Assembly: GCF_007991455.1 (NCBI RefSeq)
Contig: NZ_BJYJ01000018.1
Location: 1-64,000 of the forward strand
Direction: 5' to 3'
Source: Chryseobacterium hagamense
GTDB lineage: Bacteria; Bacteroidota; Bacteroidia; Flavobacteriales; Weeksellaceae
Length of the DNA: 64,000 nt
Part shown: in pieces, positions 2,192 to 13,300 of the stretch
Layout of the letters: every line of letters begins with the position of its first letter
How positions within the stretch are numbered: the first letter of the stretch is position 1
Position numbers and translations under genes: made by a program
The notes under the pieces: generated by a model
Told to the model about the DNA's origin: nothing
Databases searched by the model: none
The model's input: only the letters and a program-made list of their open reading frames with translations

Positions 2192-2560
2192 TTAATTTTC
2201 AGGTTTAAAACTCCTTTCCAGTTCAATACTTGCCCCCTGCATTTCGCCTTTCATAGGAGGAGCGGTTTTGGTAATCTTTAATCTGATGTAATCGATCTGC
2301 GGAAAGGCCGTGTGCAGGCTGAAAATGATCCTTCCGGCCACATGTTCCAGCAATTTGGATTTAACCTCCATTTCTTTATGAATGATATCATTGATGGCCG
2401 CATAGCTGATGGTGTCGTCCAGATCATCGGATGCTGCTGCTTTCCATAAATCCGTATGGAGCTCTGCATTAAGAATATAATAGGTGCCGATGAGGTTTTC
2501 TTCCGGCAAAACCCCGTGGTAAGCGTAAATTTTCACATTTTCGAGAAATATTTTACTCAT
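2192..2560 (-). CDS. folB: Dihydroneopterin aldolase
   Basis: FolB converts 7,8-dihydroneopterin to 6-hydroxymethyl-dihydropterin and glycolaldehyde in folate synthesis. The 122-residue protein has the family's usual length. It shows the YAYHGVLPEE active-site block (about residues 9-18), an LEHVA helix, and the C-terminal ITKTAPP segment with the catalytic Lys. The start at MSKIF was chosen over an ORF start 14 codons upstream, because the extra residues are not family-like and would overlap the promoter. folK, the next enzyme of the pathway, is at 35605, not linked. The gene is divergent from the peptide cluster, about 60 bp away. Confidence 0.93.
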   Translation of the reverse strand: MSKIFLENVKIYAYHGVLPEENLIGTYYILNAELHTDLWKAAASDDLDDTISYAAINDIIHKEMEVKSKLLEHVAGRIIFSLHTAFPQIDYIRLKITKTAPPMKGEMQGASIELERSFKPEN

Positions 2561-2577
2561 AGCTTTGTTGTATATAA

Positions 2578-2585
2578 CAAAAGTA
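2578..2585 (-). promoter_or_regulatory. Candidate folB -7 box
   Basis: On the minus strand this reads TACTTTTG, matching the Bacteroidota -7 consensus TAnnTTTG. It lies 17 bp upstream of the folB ATG. No equally good box is seen for the divergent peptide genes; an AT-rich TATATTTA lies near 2587. Confidence 0.5.
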
Positions 2586-2620
2586 ATATATTTAAATGTC
2601 AAACAAAAAATTAAATTATT

Positions 2621-2806
2621 ATGAAAAACCTAAAGAAACTGAACAGAAAAAGTTTAAAAGCCATTGCCGGCGGGGCGGGAGATGAATGTAATATCGACCT
2701 CGATTGCGGACCAAAAGGCTGTGCATGGTGTACTGAAGTGCGTGGACGTAAACTATGTCTGCGTTCAGTCGACTATCCTTTCTGCCTTGATCCGAATCCT
2801 GAATAA
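2621..2806 (+). CDS. Six-Cys GG-leader peptide 1 (type A)
   Basis: A 61-residue precursor. The leader MKNLKKLNRKSLKAIAGG (residues 1-18) ends in a double glycine, the cleavage signature of C39-peptidase exporters for bacteriocins and other secreted peptides. The 43-residue core has six Cys (C-x5-C-x4-C-x2-C spacing at first, then two more) in a DLDCGPKGCAWC context. First of five tandem genes. It shares core architecture with peptide 3, so the two form subtype A. No exporter, radical-SAM enzyme or lanthipeptide synthetase is within the window, so export and any modification must be supplied elsewhere. RefSeq labels such Chryseobacterium proteins 'bacteriocin-like'; activity is not established. 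Confidence 0.8.
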   Translation: MKNLKKLNRKSLKAIAGGAGDECNIDLDCGPKGCAWCTEVRGRKLCLRSVDYPFCLDPNPE

Positions 2807-2840
2807 ATCCTGAATATATAAACCGAAACATTAATAAATT

Positions 2841-3047
2841 ATGAAAAATCTTAAAAAACTAAACAGAAAAGAGCTTTATCAGATCAACGGAGCGGCCAAT
2901 TGTGCCGGGTGCCCGACAGGAGGATACGAGCCGGGCGGAACATCCAACGGTTTCGACCATTCCTGCGAAGATTATCATGTGCTTCCAGGCCGTTGCAAAA
3001 GCTGTGTTTTCGTAAGCGTAGACTGTGTCAACTCCAATCCTCAGTAG
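2841..3047 (+). CDS. Six-Cys leader peptide 2 (type B)
   Basis: A 68-residue precursor with a leader nearly identical to peptide 1 (MKNLKKLNRKELYQINGA), but ending GA rather than GG; C39 peptidases can accept GA. The core has six Cys arranged as C-x2-C, then a Gly/Pro-rich stretch, then C-EDY-C, C-x2-C and a late C. The same plan is found in peptides 4 and 5 (subtype B). It starts 34 bp after peptide 1 stops, so the cluster is probably one transcript. It is the longest core of the five. Function unknown; a secreted disulfide-rich or modified peptide is the simplest reading. Confidence 0.78.
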   Translation: MKNLKKLNRKELYQINGAANCAGCPTGGYEPGGTSNGFDHSCEDYHVLPGRCKSCVFVSVDCVNSNPQ

Positions 3048-3085
3048 CCGTTAACTTTTAATTATTAACCTTAAAAACAAACTCA

Positions 3086-3277
3086 ATGAAAAACCTGAAA
3101 AAATTGGACAGGCAGAATTTAAAATCAATTACCGGAGGGATTGAAGACAATTGCGTCGTAGACCTGGATTGCGGTCCACTGGGATGTGCGGTATGTACCG
3201 ATCTGAAAGGGCACAGGGTGTGTCTTTACTTTTATAATCCTGCAAATCCAGGCAGCTGTCCGGATATTAATCCGTAA
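3086..3277 (+). CDS. Six-Cys GG-leader peptide 3 (type A)
   Basis: A 63-residue precursor with leader MKNLKKLDRQNLKSITGG and a 45-residue core. The core is clearly homologous to peptide 1: both share VDLDCGP-GC-VC followed by a polar segment and a late Cys, giving six Cys in corresponding places. Identity is moderate in the core and high in the leader, as expected for duplicated peptides with variable cargo. It lies 38 bp after peptide 2. No dedicated promoter or terminator separates it from its neighbours. Function unknown. Confidence 0.8.
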   Translation: MKNLKKLDRQNLKSITGGIEDNCVVDLDCGPLGCAVCTDLKGHRVCLYFYNPANPGSCPDINP

Positions 3278-3295
3278 TTAAACTTTGATCATCAC

Positions 3296-3481
3296 ATGAA
3301 AAATTTAAAAAGAATCAACAGAGAAACCTTAAAGGCAATTCATGGAGGCGCTACGTGTAACTACGTTTGTCCTCCCGGACCCTACGGACCCGGATTTCCG
3401 AAATCCTGTGCAGATTATGATGCGCTTCCGGCGTGCTGTAAATCTAAAGTATTGTTAAGCTACGAATGTTCTCTGGATTAA
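3296..3481 (+). CDS. Six-Cys GG-leader peptide 4 (type B)
   Basis: A 61-residue precursor with leader MKNLKRINRETLKAIHGG. The core begins ATCNYVCPPGPYGPG, rich in Gly and Pro, followed by KSCADYDALPACC and a final YEC near the end: six Cys. It follows the type B order seen in peptides 2 and 5, except that its Cys pair is adjacent (CC) where the others have C-x2-C. It starts 18 bp after peptide 3, the closest spacing so far. Function unknown. Confidence 0.8.
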   Translation: MKNLKRINRETLKAIHGGATCNYVCPPGPYGPGFPKSCADYDALPACCKSKVLLSYECSLD

Positions 3482-3494
3482 TAAAACTGATGTT

Positions 3495-3674
3495 ATGAAA
3501 AAACTATCCAGGTCAAAATTAAAATCAATCAAAGGTTCCTTGAGTTGTGCAGGCTGCCCTGTGAATAACAACTACGGAACAGGACCCGAATATTCCAATA
3601 CGTGCGCCCAATATTTTGCACTGTCTCAGAACTGCCAGAGATGTGTGGATGTAAGTGCGGATTGTATTGAATAA
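3495..3674 (+). CDS. Six-Cys leader peptide 5 (type B)
   Basis: A 59-residue precursor that short-ORF cutoffs would miss. The leader is the most diverged (MKKLSRSKLKSIKGS) and ends GS instead of GG. The core again has six Cys: SCAGCP, a late TCAQYFALSQNCQRC block and a final ADC. This matches the type B peptides 2 and 4 (compare CEDYHVLPGRCKSC in peptide 2). It begins 13 bp after peptide 4 stops and ends 12 bp before a strong hairpin terminator, so it closes the transcript. Confidence 0.75.
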   Translation: MKKLSRSKLKSIKGSLSCAGCPVNNNYGTGPEYSNTCAQYFALSQNCQRCVDVSADCIE

Positions 3675-3686
3675 TAAATAAAAAGA

Positions 3687-3710
3687 GCACTGCTTTAAGC
3701 AGTGCCTTTT
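3687..3710. terminator. Bidirectional terminator, peptide cluster / nadA
   Basis: A 7-bp stem GCACTGC/GCAGTGC with a 5-nt loop has T-rich sequence on its 3' side on both strands. It sits between the converging peptide operon and nadA. Confidence 0.8.
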
Positions 3711-3714
3711 ATAT

Positions 3715-4740
3715 TTATTTAATGCTTTTGGAAAGCTCAAGCATCGCTTCAATCGGCTTTAATGCTTTTAATCTCAAATCTTCATCCATCAGGATTTCCG
3801 GAAGCTCATATTTCATGCACAGATACAGCTTTTCCATCGTATTCCGTTTCATATAGAAACATTCGGAACAATTGCAGCTTTCATCGAAAACCAATGCCGG
3901 AATCAGTTCCTTGTGAGGGGCACGTTTTTTCATTTCATGAAGAATGCCTTCTTCCGTGGCAATGATGAATTTCTGGCAGTCGTCCTGTTCTACAAAGTTC
4001 AGCAGGGCAGAAGTGGAACCGATGAAATGCGCCAGTTTTAATACGGCTTCTTCGCTTTCCGGATGGGCAATCAGTTTGGCATCCGGATTATCAGCAAGCT
4101 GTTTGGCAATTCTCTCCATGGAAAAAGCTTCATGAACTATGCAGCTGCCATCCCACAGGATCATATCACGGCCTGTTTTCTGCGAAAGGTATCTCCCCAG
4201 GTTCTTATCCGGTGCGAAAATAATCGGCCGGTCTTTCGGCAGGGCTTCGATAACGGTTTCCGCATTGGAGCTGGTCACAATGATGTCGCTTTCTGCCTTT
4301 GTCTCCGCATTACAGTTGATGTAAGTCGCCACGAGTGCGTTGGAATGCTGTTCGCGCATTTTCCGCAGGCCTTCTCCTGAACAGCCGTCTGCCAAAGAAC
4401 ATCCTGCCATGGTATCGGGAAGGACTACTTTTTTGGTCGGATTTAAAATTTTTGCCGCTTCGGCCATGAAATGTACCCCACAGAATACGATCATATCAGC
4501 ATCGGTATCCTTTGCCTGTCTTGCCAGCTGAAGGGAATCTCCAAGGAAATCGGCAATATCCTGGATTTCTCCGGGTTGGTAATAATGCGCTAAAATCACT
4601 GCATTTTTTTCTTCTTTCAGCTTAAGAATTGCTTTTACAAGCTCCTCGCCTTCAGGGATAACAAGATCTTTGATATCTAAAAATCCCCTTACCGGAATTG
4701 CAGATTTGGCTTTTTCTAATGTTTCGGTACTCATATCCAC
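3715..4740 (-). CDS. nadA: Quinolinate synthase
   Basis: NadA condenses iminoaspartate with dihydroxyacetone phosphate to quinolinate, the first committed metabolite of de novo NAD synthesis, using an oxygen-sensitive [4Fe-4S] cluster. The 341-residue protein has family motifs: ILAHYYQPGEIQDIADF near residue 50, DTMAGCSLADGC, NCNAETKAESD, APDKNLGRY and DESCNCSECFYMKRNT. Conserved Cys residues available for the cluster are present. The start at MDMST is the first in-frame ATG; a second ATG two codons later is equally possible. nadB and nadC are not nearby. It shares the terminator at 3687 with the converging peptide cluster. Confidence 0.95.
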   Translation of the reverse strand: MDMSTETLEKAKSAIPVRGFLDIKDLVIPEGEELVKAILKLKEEKNAVILAHYYQPGEIQDIADFLGDSLQLARQAKDTDADMIVFCGVHFMAEAAKILNPTKKVVLPDTMAGCSLADGCSGEGLRKMREQHSNALVATYINCNAETKAESDIIVTSSNAETVIEALPKDRPIIFAPDKNLGRYLSQKTGRDMILWDGSCIVHEAFSMERIAKQLADNPDAKLIAHPESEEAVLKLAHFIGSTSALLNFVEQDDCQKFIIATEEGILHEMKKRAPHKELIPALVFDESCNCSECFYMKRNTMEKLYLCMKYELPEILMDEDLRLKALKPIEAMLELSKSIK

Positions 4741-5443: not shown

Positions 5444-6301
5444 TTAAAGAACGTTCAACGTCTGTTCTTTAATCTTTTCCAGATCATCTTTCATCATCAC
5501 CACCAGTTTCTGAATGGCTGCATGGTTGGCTTTTGAACCTAGTGTATTGATCTCACGGCCGATTTCCTGGGAGATGAAGCCAAGCTTCTTCCCGTTGAAA
5601 TCTTCATGGTCCATCACTTCCTTATAATATTTCAGGTGCTGCGAAAGCCTTACCTTCTCTTCCGAAATATCCAGCTTCTCTGTGAAATAAGCCATTTCCT
5701 GGTAGAAACGGGTTTCGTCCACATTTTCAAATTCCTTCAGTGATTTCTGGTAACGTTCTTTTACGGCAACAATCCGTTCTTCCTCAAAAGGAACCACTTC
5801 GGCAAGGTTTTTCTCAATATTCTTAAGGTTTCTTTCCAGCTCTTCATGCAGGATATTGCCTTCCGTTTTTCTGAACTCTTCGAAGCGGTCAACTGCTGCA
5901 TGGACGATTTTCGCCAGGGCTTCCCATTCGCCTTCAGACAGTTCATCAGGTCTTGAGGTGATCGCATCCGGGAACCGTACCGCCATTTTCAGGTACTCGA
6001 AATCCGGTCCGTCAGAGGCCACACTTTTAAGTTCGCTGATATAGGAATCAATAAGGCTTTTGTTGATTTTCACATCGGTAGACTCTTCCAGGTTCTCCAG
6101 GTTGAGGTAGCAGTCTACTTTCCCACGGATAATCCGGTCGTTGAGAATCTTCCGGATCTCGAATTCCTTCTCTTTGTACCGGAGCGGGATCTTGATATTC
6201 AAATCGAAGCTTTTACTGTTCAGCGATTTGATATCGATCGTGATCTTTTTCCCTTCAAAAACACCTTCGGCCCTACCAAAGCCGGTCATTGATAAAATCA
6301 T
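5444..6301 (-). CDS. yicC: YicC/YloC-family endoribonuclease
   Basis: A 285-residue protein matching the YicC family end to end. The N-terminus is MILSMTGFGRAEG and the C-terminus contains FISQEIGREINTLGSKAN followed by a MKDDLEKIKEQ helix, the family's two hallmark blocks. E. coli YicC is an endoribonuclease implicated in sRNA (RyhB) decay; the same RNase activity is inferred here. The central part is predicted helical and acidic. It is upstream of gmk, probably in the same transcript. A 540-bp intergenic stretch with an inverted-repeat element lies on its 5' side. Confidence 0.92.
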   Translation of the reverse strand: MILSMTGFGRAEGVFEGKKITIDIKSLNSKSFDLNIKIPLRYKEKEFEIRKILNDRIIRGKVDCYLNLENLEESTDVKINKSLIDSYISELKSVASDGPDFEYLKMAVRFPDAITSRPDELSEGEWEALAKIVHAAVDRFEEFRKTEGNILHEELERNLKNIEKNLAEVVPFEEERIVAVKERYQKSLKEFENVDETRFYQEMAYFTEKLDISEEKVRLSQHLKYYKEVMDHEDFNGKKLGFISQEIGREINTLGSKANHAAIQKLVVMMKDDLEKIKEQTLNVL

Positions 6302-8047: not shown

Positions 8048-8683
8048 ATGATCTACAGTAGCCGGCCAAATTTAATGATAGGGTTTCATGGGTGCGATGA
8101 ATCTGTCAGAAATGAGTTGATTAACAATCCCAATAAAATTAGAAAAAGCCAGGAGAAATTCGATTGGCTTGGCCATGGCTTTTATATTTGGGAAAATAAT
8201 TATGAGAGAGCTTTAAAATGGTCAGAAGACAAATTTAAACGCGGAACGATTATCAAACCATCAGTTGTTGGTGTTGTATACCAACTGGATTATTGTCTGG
8301 ATTTCACAGATTCTAAATTTATTGATATTTTAAGCGTATATCATCAGTTATTAAAAGATGATTTGGAAGTTGCAGGAAAAACACTTCCCAAAAACAAAGA
8401 TGTGGCTAGAGATGCACGTAAAGATTTGCTTTTGAGAGAGCTGGATTGCGCGGTTATCGAATATTTGCATCAAAAAATAGAAGACGGTATAAAAGATGAT
8501 GAGAAGATAAAAGGATTCAGTAAAATAAAAAGATTCGATACCACAAGGGGCATTTTTACAGAGGGTGGTCCCGCTTATGAAGGAGCAGGGATTCAGACCA
8601 AAAATCATATCCAGATCTGCATCAGAAATTTGAATTGTATCAAAGGATTTTTTATCCCACGTGATGAAATTAAATTTCCTTAA
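8048..8683 (+). CDS. DUF3990-like ADP-ribosyltransferase-fold protein (putative toxin)
   Basis: A 211-residue protein without a signal peptide. The N-terminal IGFHGCD (residues 11-17) followed by a DWLGHGFYIW block and ERALKWSE (about 40-61) mirrors the 'YHG ... FG-GFY-T ... A-WA' pattern of DUF3990 and related ADP-ribosyltransferase (ART) domains. There His and Tyr bind NAD. A conserved C-terminal IQICIRNLNCIKGFFIPR resembles the end of such domains. The third catalytic residue cannot be assigned by eye. The arrangement with a 56-aa gene 9 bp upstream suggests a toxin-antitoxin pair or a defence module. Its target is unknown. Sure of the ORF, moderately sure of the fold, unsure of the role. 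Confidence 0.55.
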   Translation: MIYSSRPNLMIGFHGCDESVRNELINNPNKIRKSQEKFDWLGHGFYIWENNYERALKWSEDKFKRGTIIKPSVVGVVYQLDYCLDFTDSKFIDILSVYHQLLKDDLEVAGKTLPKNKDVARDARKDLLLRELDCAVIEYLHQKIEDGIKDDEKIKGFSKIKRFDTTRGIFTEGGPAYEGAGIQTKNHIQICIRNLNCIKGFFIPRDEIKFP

Positions 8684-8737: not shown

Positions 8738-10150
8738 CTACTTCCAGCCGCCGCCCAAGGCACGGTACAGGTCTACAATACTGCTGAGCCTTTGTCTTTT
8801 GACGGACGCCAGATTCAGCTCGGCCTGTAAGGAATTACCCTGGGCGGTTATTACTTCTAAATAATTGGCCATTCCGCCTTTGTACAGCATTTCGGCACTT
8901 TTGATTCCGTTTTTAAGGGTGGTTACCTGCTCGGAAGCTTTCTGTTCCTGGACTTTTAAGCTTTCATTGGAAACCAGGGCGTCCGAAACTTCACCCACGG
9001 CATTCAAAACAGACTGCCGGAAAGCCAGTACGTTTTTCTCCCGTTGGATTTTAGCCACATTCAGATCCGTTTTCAGTTGTCTTTTCTGGAAAACCGGCTG
9101 GGTAAGGCCTCCTAAAACGGAACCGAACAACGATGCCGGAATCTGGAACCAATTGTCGATCTTAAATGAATTCACCCCGCCGTTGGCTGTAATCCGTAAG
9201 GCAGGATACATATTGGCCTGGGCAATACCCACCAAAGCGTTCGATTCCAGCAAGACCAGCTCCTGCTGCCTTACATCCGGCCGGCGGCTTACCATGGCTG
9301 CCGGAAGTCCTGCCGAAATATTCTGTGGCAAAGAGGTTTCGGACATTTCAATCGTCCGGCTGATTTTCCCGGGATTTTCACCCACCAGAATGCTCAGTGC
9401 GTTTTCCTGAATGGCCATATTCTGCTCGAGTTGGGTGATCAGAAGCTCGGTAGACTGTTTCTGGGCGGTGGCCTGCTGTACGCCTAAAGAAGTCGTGTCG
9501 CCGCTCTGCCACATCTTTTCCGTGATGGAAAGGGTATTGGTGCTCAATTCCAGGTTCGACTTCGCAATCTGCAATTGTCTGTCCAGCATCAGCAGGTTGT
9601 AGTAGCCCTGGGCAATGGCTGCTACCACCTGGGTCTGGATGGCTTTTGTCGCTTCATAGGTCTGCAGGTACTGCATTCTCGAAACTTCCTGCTGGTTTTT
9701 GATTTTCCCCCAGATATCCGCTTCCCAGGATAAATTGAAGGCGGCGTTGTAATCCTCCACATGGCTTTGGCCTAAAAACAAATTTAAGCTCTGCCCGTTC
9801 ATGCTGTTTTTCGACGGCTTTGAAATCTGTGCGGAAACGCCGAAGCCGATATCAGGATACTGAAGGTATTTCGCCTGTTTCAGTCTTTCCTGTGAAGCGG
9901 CCACCTGCTTCAGGGCAATCTGCAGGTCATAATTGTTTTTAATCCCTTTTTCAATTAAACCCTGTAAAACCGGATCGCTGAAAAACTGTTTCCATTCCAG
10001 ATCCGCCACACTGGCAGTATCAGCAGTGGCGGTGTAGGCAAATGTTTCCGGCAGCTCAGGTTTCGGTTCCTGGTAAGCCAGCTTCGACACACAGGAAACC
10101 GAACCTAAGGCTACTGCAAAAGTGATGATGATATTTTTTATTTTTTTCAT
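8738..10150 (-). CDS. RND efflux outer-membrane lipoprotein (OprM/NodT family)
   Basis: This is the outer-membrane channel of a tripartite RND pump. The 470-residue protein starts with a lipoprotein signal (lipobox GSVSC, Cys20). It has two TolC-like repeats of long amphipathic helices: LEWKQFFSDPVLQGLIEKG opens the first, and the second ends with EVITAQ and a LYRALGGGWK C-terminus, typical of the NodT subfamily. It is the distal gene of the operon acrA-like, acrB-like, oprM-like, 178 bp after the pump gene. A dispersed repeat lies in the gap. Substrates cannot be predicted. Confidence 0.93.
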   Translation of the reverse strand: MKKIKNIIITFAVALGSVSCVSKLAYQEPKPELPETFAYTATADTASVADLEWKQFFSDPVLQGLIEKGIKNNYDLQIALKQVAASQERLKQAKYLQYPDIGFGVSAQISKPSKNSMNGQSLNLFLGQSHVEDYNAAFNLSWEADIWGKIKNQQEVSRMQYLQTYEATKAIQTQVVAAIAQGYYNLLMLDRQLQIAKSNLELSTNTLSITEKMWQSGDTTSLGVQQATAQKQSTELLITQLEQNMAIQENALSILVGENPGKISRTIEMSETSLPQNISAGLPAAMVSRRPDVRQQELVLLESNALVGIAQANMYPALRITANGGVNSFKIDNWFQIPASLFGSVLGGLTQPVFQKRQLKTDLNVAKIQREKNVLAFRQSVLNAVGEVSDALVSNESLKVQEQKASEQVTTLKNGIKSAEMLYKGGMANYLEVITAQGNSLQAELNLASVKRQRLSSIVDLYRALGGGWK

Positions 10151-10328: not shown

Positions 10329-13300
10329 TTAATGCGCCGGTGTTAAAAGCTCCGCTTCAAGTTTTTGTTTCCGGAGTCTTTTCTTTTTCCGGCTTGGCAT
10401 TTTTTCATGCAGATACTGGAAAATCACGAACATTACCGGAATGATGAATATTCCGAATACAACCCCCGTCAGCATTCCTCCCACGGTACTGAAACCGATG
10501 GAATGATTTCCTTTTGCGGAAGCACCCTGGGTGAAGACAAGCGGCAGCATCCCGACAATAAAGGCAAAGGAAGTCATTAAGATCGGGCGCAGACGTAGTC
10601 TTGAAGCCTGAAGCGCAGATTCCAGCAGGGTCCTTCCTGCATTTCGCCGCTGTACGGCGAACTCCACAATCAGGATCGCATTCTTGGCCAGTAATCCGAC
10701 CAGCATGATGAGGCCGACCTGAACATAAATGTTGTTATCGATTCCGGCCAGTCCCGTGAAAGCGAATACTCCGAAAATCCCTGTCGGAATCGTGAGGATC
10801 ACCGCAAACGGAAGAATGTAGCTCTCATACTGTGCAGCCAGCAGGAAGTACACAAACAGGATACTCAGCATAAAGATGAAGGCGGTCTGCCCGCTGGTTT
10901 TAATTTCTTCCCGCGTAATTCCGGTCCATTCGTAACCGTAGCCTCTCGGCAGCGACTTCTGCGCAACTTCTTCCACGGCTTTGATGGCATCTCCGGTGCT
11001 GTAACCCGGCTTCGGGGTCCCGTTGATGGTAACGGCATTGAACAGGTTGTTTCTGGTTACCGTTTCAGGCCCGAAAGCTCTTTTTAAAGTCACCAGGGTT
11101 TTTACGGGCACCATTTCACCCGATTTGTTTTTCACAAAAATGCCTTCCAGGGAATTGGCATCGGTACGGTAGGGGATATCGGCCTGTGCCATTACCCGGT
11201 AATATTTTCCGAACCGGTTGAAATCCGATACGAAACTGCTTCCGTAATAGATCTGCATCGTCTGCATCAGTTCGGTAATGGAAACACCTAACTGATTGGC
11301 TTTATCATTATCCACCTCAATCGTGAACTGAGGATTTCCGGCAGCATATGTTGTGAACGCGAACGCAATTTCCGGACGTTTCATCAGCTCACCGATAAAA
11401 GCCTGCGTGGTTGTTCCCAGCTGTTCCAGGGAACCGTTGGTTTTATCCTGAAGCATAAACTCAAAGCCGGAAACATTTCCGAATCCCTGAACGGTAGGGA
11501 AGTTGAAGAAGAAGGCATTCGCATCTTTTACCTGGGATACTTTCCCCGTCAGTCCCGCTGCAATCTCATCCGGATCGGTCACGGCACCGCGCTGGTCATG
11601 GTCTTTTAATTTGATAAACCCGGCAGAATACGGGGATGCATTCGCATTGCTGATGAAGTTCAGACCGTCGGAAACCCAAAGGTGGTTCTTGGCTTTTTCA
11701 CCGTTGATGATTTTATCGATCTGCTCGGTGGCCCGGTGGGTTCTGTCCAGCGAACTGCCCGGAGGGGTATTTACCGCATACAGGATGAAGCCCTGGTCCT
11801 CGGTAGGAATAAATCCGGATGGTGCTTTTTTAATTAAGAAAACACTGGCGGCAATGAGAAGGGCCAATCCACCGACGGCAACCCATTTGTTTTTAATTAA
11901 AAATTTAAGGCTGTAAATGTATTTTTTGGTCAGGTTATTAAAGCTTGTATTAAAAGCATTAAAGAACCTTGCCCCGAAACCTGTTTTTTTGCCATGCTCG
12001 CCGTGTCCTCCCTGGGGATCGTTGAGAAGCAGCGCACATAAAGCCGGACTCAGCGTCAAAGCATTGACCGCTGAAATCAGGATGGCAATGGCAAGGGTAA
12101 AGGCAAACTGCCTGTAGAAAACACCTGCCGGACCCTGCATAAAACCTACCGGAATAAATACGGCGCACATTACCAGGGTAATGGAAATGATGGCTCCGGA
12201 GATTTCACTCATCGAATTCATGGTGGCCTGTTCCACCGGCATGCCCGTGTGTTCCATTTTGGAGTGGACGGCTTCCACCACCACGATCGCATCATCCACC
12301 ACAATACCGATGGCAAGGACCAGAGCGAACAGCGTGAGCATATTGATGCTGAATCCGAATAAATTCAGGAAAAAGAAAGTACCGATGATGGCCACCGGAA
12401 CCGCTATCGCCGGAATTAAAGTCGACCTGAAATCCTGAAGGAAAATGTAGACCACGATAAACACCAGGATAAAGGCAATCACCAGGGTTTCCACCACCTG
12501 ATGAATGGAAGCATCCAGGAAGTCCTTGGAATTGTACATGATAATCGGCTCCACACCCTGTGGAAGCGTAGTTTTCAGCTGATCGACCTGTTTTTCGATT
12601 TCCGTTAAAATTTCGTTGGCGTTGGAACCGGCGGTCTGCATGATAGCAAATCCGGCTACCGGTTTTCCATCCACCCGGTTGGCGGCAGTATAGGTATACG
12701 ATCCGAATTCTACCCGGGCCACATCCTTCAGTCTCAGGAAAGAACCGTCGCTGTTGGCTTTGATGGCAATGTTTTCATAATCTTCGTTCTTGTTCAGTTT
12801 TCCTTTGTACTTAAGGATATATTCATAGGTTTCTTTGCTTCCCTGTCCTAGACGTCCGGGGGCAGCTTCCAGATTATGGTCTTTTACCGCATTCAGGACT
12901 TCCTGAGGAGAGAGGTTGTTGGCCGCCAGCCGGTCCGGTTTCAGCCAGAGCCGCATGGAATAATCCCTTGTTCCGAACACCTGGGCCTGGGCAACGCCCG
13001 GAATCCGCTGGATCTGCGGGATGATGTTTATTTTTAAATAGTTCTGAAGGAACAACTCATCGTATTCCTTGGGATTATTACTCGTTAATCCCATAAACAT
13101 GATCATGCTGTTCTGTACCTTCTGGGTGGAGATCCCGGCCTGTACGACTTCCTGGGGAAGCTGGCTCATTGCTTTGGACACCCGGTTCTGAACATTCACG
13201 GCGGCATTGTCCGGATCGGAGCCCTGCTTGAAGAATACGCTTAAGGTCATTGTACCGTCATTGCTGGAATTGGAGGTCATATACGTCATGTTCTCCACAC

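Follow-up and report, generated by a model that had tools for sequence, protein, structure and literature searches.

A five-gene cluster of six-cysteine leader peptides in Chryseobacterium hagamense with probable disulfide maturation in trans

The genes discussed here lie in what we call the window, the whole analysed stretch of 64,000 nucleotides from Chryseobacterium hagamense (RefSeq assembly GCF_007991455.1, contig NZ_BJYJ01000018.1, positions 1 to 64,000), where a tandem array of five small open reading frames (ORFs) occupies positions 2621-3674 of the plus strand between folB and nadA. The five genes probably encode precursors of secreted three-disulfide proteins that are matured in trans by a C39-peptidase exporter and a fusion of VKOR and thioredoxin (VKOR-Trx) acting as the oxidase. 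The sequences themselves display the leader, the six invariant cysteines, a rule of even cysteine numbers, operon linkage, and the co-occurrence of leader, exporter, and oxidase, and by these the disulfide maturation in trans appears well supported.

According to the proposed mechanism, the leader of 14-18 residues would guide the precursors to a machinery whose genes lie at other sites of the genome. In it, a C39-peptidase ABC transporter would cut after GG, GA, or GS and export the core. The exporter would be completed by an adaptor of HlyD type and, presumably, an outer-membrane channel of TolC type. Disulfides would be formed by the membrane VKOR-Trx fusion, either while the core is exported or afterwards; the N-terminal part of the fusion, which appears as a degenerate C39-like domain, may read the same leader. 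A single exporter would serve about 25 scattered orphan precursors, and the present cluster (two type A and three type B precursors) would be one unit among them. Cleavage of the leader, the disulfides themselves, and the recognition of these five precursors by this exporter are predictions of the scheme. Under it, the mature products of genes 1-5 would have average masses near 4754.3, 5174.6, 4806.4, 4542.2, and 4704.1, respectively, with all three disulfides formed.

Five precursors with six cysteines each

An earlier note, made from the letters of the window alone, had described five tandem genes with near-identical leaders ending in GG, GA, or GS, a spacing of 13-38 bp, and a single strong terminator at the end of the set, all of which was borne out by the ORF coordinates and the stem-loop with its T-tail (Table 1). 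In genes 1-4 the leader is 18 residues long, in gene 5 it is shorter (14-15), the leader ends are GG, GA, GG, GG, and GS in gene order, and the intergenic gaps measure 34, 38, 18, and 13 bp. We infer that the genes are transcribed as one operon. Every one of the five cores contains exactly six cysteines, as had been claimed. Since cysteine makes up 0.8% of the residues in the long ORFs of the window, the chance of at least six cysteines per core is 1.5e-6 to 3.6e-6 and about 1e-28.6 for the five jointly, so the cysteine content of the cores did not arise by chance. Among the ORFs of 40-90 residues in the window, only these five combine at least six cysteines with a G[GAS] motif near the N-terminus.

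An exporter and an oxidase encoded elsewhere in the genome

A search with C39 and VKOR profiles gave no match inside the 64-kb window, in line with the statement of the earlier note that neither exporter nor tailoring enzyme lies there, and maturation in trans is therefore the natural reading. Two C39 matches were found in the genome of C. hagamense: contig C68 encodes a complete C39-ABC transporter, and the other match is by its sequence no ABC transporter. On C68, the C39-ABC gene is followed by a six-cysteine leader peptide of the same family and then by a HlyD-type gene. The VKOR-Trx fusion (Pfam VKOR, E 1e-9, and Thioredoxin_4, E 1.5e-8) is encoded at C40:25326-26825. A further, diverged copy (C4:6753-8234) adjoins another six-cysteine leader peptide, and contig C64 carries remnants. 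With the exporter and the oxidase thus located elsewhere in the genome, the maturation in trans that had been proposed gains its candidate enzymes.

Across 20 related exporter neighbourhoods, which were partly picked for a nearby leader match so that their count is no unbiased estimate, the gene order is VKOR-Trx, leader peptides, C39-ABC, leader peptides, and HlyD, with the peptides at one or both spots. Close relatives with a 99% identical C39-ABC (L109, L120, and L127) carry one contiguous VKOR-Trx/exporter operon. In C. hagamense, the end of C40 and the start of C68 both fall within the corresponding operon, which suggests that the two contigs adjoin in this genome.

In eight VKOR-Trx fusions the catalytic-type cysteines, four of VKOR type and the CxxC of the thioredoxin part, are invariant (C174, C186, and the CxxC pairs at 253-256 and 365-368). 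The first 120 residues match Pfam Peptidase_C39 in 8/8 members, in no case reaching the cut-off (best E 0.004), and the match in the member shown covers the profile after position 36, a stretch that in this family follows the catalytic cysteine. When the N-terminus of the oxidase was aligned by hhalign with the C39 domain of the exporter, the same register was obtained at non-significant scores (P 0.028, probability 1.8%). These matches hint that the N-terminal part may be a degenerate C39 domain reading the same leader, which would account for the recognition of the same leaders by the oxidase.

Several further observations concern these loci. The leader peptide copy directly after VKOR-Trx (L152:~12930-13136; C40:26930 onward) has an in-frame stop beside an A run. 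On C64 (L035:119-1959), a helix-turn-helix (transposase-like) gene lies between two VKOR-Trx remnants, close to a four-cysteine leader peptide, and on C4 (L153:2245-4038, 5629-6003) the second VKOR-Trx and its six-cysteine leader peptide lie near a TIGR03891 match (thiopeptide-type bacteriocin biosynthesis). Export by C39-ABC/HlyD systems needs a TolC-type channel. An outer-membrane efflux protein (PF02321), which may or may not serve the cluster, is encoded in the window at 8741-10150 on the minus strand.

Co-occurrence and cysteine parity

A VKOR-Trx orthologue was found in 136/136 leader-bearing genomes of the genus versus 2/12 leader-less ones (Fisher 6e-14), and one of the 10 leader-less genomes without the orthologue has a distant homologue only. 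An independent test outside the genus gave VKOR-Trx in 13/13 genomes with leaders, distributed over six genera, and in 0/18 genomes of the family without leaders; two of the genera outside Chryseobacterium contain both states (leader with VKOR-Trx, and neither). Moreover, the three genomes without any C39 match are also without leaders.

Disulfides require paired cysteines, which most other crosslinks do not. For a parity test, the leader peptides of all loci fetched (294 unique sequences) were grouped by core sequence into 52 families that have the leader alone in common. Of these families, 44 have an even, non-zero modal cysteine number, seven an odd one, and one a modal number of zero (p=6e-8 against one half), and several of the odd families consist of cysteine-poor graspetide-type precursors or dubious ORFs. 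Among 107 leader peptides taken without restriction from 29 loci, 102 have six cysteines. The earlier note had left the choice between three disulfides and enzyme-made crosslinks open, and the dedicated VKOR-Trx oxidase together with the even-cysteine rule favours disulfides.

Two core types under constraint

The cores follow the order A-B-A-B-B, with type A (genes 1 and 3) showing the pattern CxxDxDCGPxGCAxCT...G..xC...C and type B (genes 2, 4, and 5) the pattern CxxCP...GPG...C..Y..L...C...C. Gene 4 and its orthologues form a subtype, B2, in which the first pair is CxxxC and the C4-C5 pair is CC rather than CxxC, so that one cysteine has moved and the total is still six. In aligned homologues of both types the cysteine columns are invariant across dozens of Chryseobacterium species, an invariance partly built in by the selection pattern used. 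The proposed combination of conserved cysteines with divergent cores thus holds for the cysteine positions, which proved not to be random among further homologues, whereas the cores fall into two types and not five. A search of the PDB with both core profiles found no relative.

In a genus survey of 148 genomes, type A was present in 39 and type B in 109, with B but not A in 70, and 39/39 type A genomes also carry type B (hypergeometric p=7e-7). Type A is confined to Chryseobacterium in a scan of GTDB 220, limited by its patterns, in which a single genome stood for each species. Twenty related loci were fetched, one of which is cut by a contig end, and nadA adjoins the cluster in all 19 informative ones; the other flank is folB in some relatives and, in others, an aspartokinase/homoserine-dehydrogenase-like gene (named from its sequence).

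The median ratio of nonsynonymous to synonymous substitution rates (dN/dS) of the cores, from pairwise comparison without pairs saturated at synonymous sites, is 0.21 for type A and 0.37 for type B, and no core pair exceeds 1. By these values the cores are under purifying selection, and positive selection, as a candidate explanation, is ruled out. The diversification of a secreted peptide family, as the earlier note had it, therefore amounts to duplication and drift under constraint and not to an arms race.

The leader family

The leader is already catalogued by NCBI as NCBIfam NF047798 (leader_Chryseo, 'bacteriocin-like protein'), and the cluster is not a new kind since this family had been named. 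Genes 1-4 match the model at 28-37 bits (cut-off 23.5), while the leader of gene 5 scores 18.9 bits, under the cut-off. The search for further leaders suggested earlier returned 39 matches at E<=1 in the same genome, 23 of them above the cut-off and spread over many contigs. NF047798 matches occur in 136/148 genomes of the genus, with a median of 24 per genome (range 1-48), a number that points to one exporter serving many orphan precursors. In the wider family outside the genus, leader matches were found in 13 genomes of six other genera.

A second tandem array in the same genome (C1:653140-653900; L037:2141-2901) has four leader peptides with 6, 6, 4, and 4 cysteines and the variant leader MKNQN...KQLRSI.GG. 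A third family of six-cysteine leader peptides (CNLNCEIHETCG...) occurs in many species on the antisense strand, in the interval that separates the cluster from nadA (L159:4503, L167:4496, and L173:4510, minus strand). Leader peptides are also repeatedly paired with secreted GLPGLI-family proteins (L214:3692-7390, L035:1998-3195, L153:1402-4038, L152:13204-14022), an assignment made by TIGR01200 for L152, by the GLPGL motif for L035 and L153, and by size and N-terminus for the three in L214. In genome G066, three peptides alternate with three GLPGLI-type genes. These proteins could be cognate partners of the leader peptides.

Weighing the explanations

Several points weigh against the proposed maturation by C39 exporter and VKOR-Trx oxidase. 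The operon in C. hagamense is deduced from relatives because C40 and C68 are separate contigs, the C39-like match of the oxidase N-terminus lies below threshold with a probability of just 1.8% in hhalign, the co-occurrence of leader and oxidase is partly clade-structured, and two genomes (G029 and G089) hold the whole machine with no leader peptide detected. Another maturation would be that of ribosomally synthesized and post-translationally modified peptides (RiPPs), with the cysteines crosslinked by a grasp-with-spasm system as SPASM thioethers or graspetide lactones. The TIGR04192 and TIGR04193 genes directly upstream of VKOR-Trx on C40 speak for it, as do SPASM enzymes capable of forming thioethers (discussed in PMC8939145). 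We nevertheless consider it very unlikely: the SPASM maturase TIGR04193 is missing in at least 15 leader-bearing genomes, all of which have VKOR-Trx and five of which carry both types A and B (G013, G028, G065, G077, and G080), even counts dominate where thioethers need no even cysteine number, and the grasp genes have their own separate, cysteine-poor, graspetide-type precursors alongside. Similarly improbable is that the peptides are metal-binding proteins with thiolate ligands, as the high cysteine content and the CxxC pairs might suggest, given the linkage to an oxidase and an exporter, cores poor in histidine (1.2% of residues), and a conserved spacing with Gly/Pro turns.

With disulfide maturation as the preferred reading, the function of the cores is a separate question. 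Antibacterial competition as for bacteroidetocins is a reasonable guess because of that precedent, with a chance that we would put a little short of even. The net charge of the five cores is -1 to -4, the median charge of the core families is -1, and 78% of the cysteine-bearing families are at or below zero, whereas typical antimicrobial peptides are cationic; the acidic cores, the absence of a linked immunity gene, and the purifying selection all speak against this part of the reading. A close rival, tentatively entertained here, keeps the same maturation and holds the products to be knottin-like inhibitors, ligands, or stabilizing mini-proteins acting on environmental or cell-surface proteins. 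It draws on the same acidity, selection, and missing immunity gene and also on the stable chromosomal place beside nadA. AlphaFold models of the cores are of moderate confidence (pLDDT 74.6 for type A, gene 1, and 78.0 for type B, gene 2), and that of type A is a beta-hairpin, presumably rich in disulfides. Among its best structural neighbours, all of them weak, are knottin and defensin-like peptides (Z <= 3.1); knottins have three interlocked disulfides in a beta-hairpin. These structural matches are non-significant, however. Foldseek gave nothing better than E 0.7 with the type A model and no match with the type B model. It also counts against this rival that bacteroidetocins have no immunity gene either (PMC6671954) and that the paralogues of a genome are reminiscent, in their number, of competition repertoires. 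It would also be compatible with the C39/VKOR-Trx maturation if types A and B formed a two-component pair, to which their alternation in the window and the presence of B in every type A genome point; we regard this as rather improbable, as 70 genomes have B without A and a common locus and ancestry could produce the same nesting.

Comparison with known systems

Bacteroidetocins have a GG leader of 15-16 residues, cysteine-bearing cores of about 42 residues, and no immunity gene (Coyne et al. 2019, PMC6671954). Bacteroidetocins A and B contain four cysteines, the Bo/Bt peptide has a net charge of +2, the precursor lies in the operon of a C39-type exporter, within a region that also encodes a transmembrane (TM) protein, and a thiol oxidoreductase gene close by is required for activity (PMC6671954), so that this system provides a precedent for the proposed maturation. 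By that published description, the present peptides are alike in the GG-type leader (14-18 residues, cleavage predicted), the cysteine-bearing cores of about that length, the C39-type ABC exporter in the genome, the thiol oxidoreductase, and the lack of an immunity gene. They differ in having six cysteines, acidic cores, an oxidase that is a VKOR-Trx fusion, and numerous orphan precursors encoded at a distance from the exporter; here exporter and oxidase are on other contigs and neither stands beside the cluster.

Graspetides are crosslinked by ATP-grasp enzymes via Thr/Ser/Asp/Glu/Lys, and the main text of PMC8939145 does not mention a disulfide oxidase. The loci of chryseoviridin and other Chryseobacterium graspetides (PMC8939145) are similar in their tandem precursors, GG leaders, and C39-ABC and HlyD exporter, but the present peptides are independent of graspetide enzymes, as TIGR04193 is absent from genomes with both peptide types. 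On C40 (L152:7556-11218), a grasp-with-spasm system (TIGR04192, TIGR04193) with two cysteine-poor GG precursors lies directly upstream of VKOR-Trx, and graspetides may thus share the exporter.

The leader_Chryseo model describes the same 18-residue leader, with four of the five genes above its curated cut-off, and covers the leader only, being silent on core types, cysteine rule, exporter, and oxidase. NF047792 (CCPGW family putative bacteriocin) matches at 15-24 bits against a cut-off of 80 and over residues 1-32 only; the leader region is common and the cores are unrelated. Pfam Bacteriocin_IIc (PF10439) reaches at best 18.5 bits against 27.1, mostly over the leader. In the literature covered, which leaves most subscription journals outside, no paper joined VKOR with bacteriocin and 'disulfide bond formation', and none joined Chryseobacterium with 'bacteriocin-like protein'.

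Features of the locus

Table 1. Coordinates of the cluster, its signals, and its flanks in the window (aa, amino acids)
Feature	Position	Strand	Remarks
folB (dihydroneopterin aldolase), flank	2192..2602	-	PF02152
Promoter-like site, Bacteroidetes type	2564..2594	+	TTTG at 2564-2567, 19 bp, TATATTTA at 2587-2594
Gene 1, type A precursor	2621..2806	+	61 aa; leader MKNLKKLNRKSLKAIAGG; core motif C-x5-C-GPKG-C-x2-C-x8-C-x8-C; orthologues in ~40 species, 58-83% identity
Gene 1, predicted mature core	2675..2803	+	43 aa; average mass 4760.4, with three disulfides 4754.3; net charge -3
Gene 2, type B precursor (CxxCP...C...CxxC...C)	2841..3047	+	68 aa
Gene 3, type A precursor	3086..3277	+	63 aa
Gene 4, type B precursor of subtype B2 (CxxxC, CC)	3296..3481	+	61 aa; one Cys shifted, still six
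Gene 5, type B precursor, shorter leader	3495..3674	+	59 aa; leader MKKLSRSKLKSIKGS
Intrinsic terminator	3687..3705	+	strong stem-loop, 8-9 bp stem, T-tail; common to convergent nadA
nadA (quinolinate synthase), conserved flank	3715..4740	-	PF02445

The site upstream of gene 1 was compared with the Bacteroidetes -33/-7 promoter consensus and is considered a putative promoter, and pairs resembling TTTG...TATATTTA are found again ahead of the leading gene of the cluster in many relatives. The true start of folB is probably the ATG at 2560, which would leave about 60 bp between folB and the divergent gene 1. Elsewhere in the window, an ORF of 211 aa (8048-8683, plus strand) has no Pfam match.

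Implications

What is new is that the leader family can be linked with a machinery for maturation encoded beyond the window. The NCBI name 'bacteriocin-like' was given on the leader alone, and the present data connect this leader with one particular exporter and with a disulfide oxidase dedicated to it. A testable chemistry follows, namely an even number of cysteines that are all paired, and the exporter and oxidase genes can be named as the two that, once deleted, should leave the entire set silent. Should this be borne out, a ready-made collection of natural disulfide mini-protein scaffolds would be served by a single exporter and a single oxidase, and this oxidase might become a useful tool for the production of disulfide-rich peptides in bacteria. 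It is conceivable, with the balance slightly on the doubtful side, that Chryseobacterium and some relatives possess a genome-wide disulfide mini-protein secretome in which one C39 exporter, coupled to a leader-reading VKOR-Trx oxidase, matures about 25 unrelated cysteine-rich cores from dispersed loci. Such a secretome would be a bacterial counterpart of venom and defensin-like peptide repertoires, with functions beyond those of bacteriocins.
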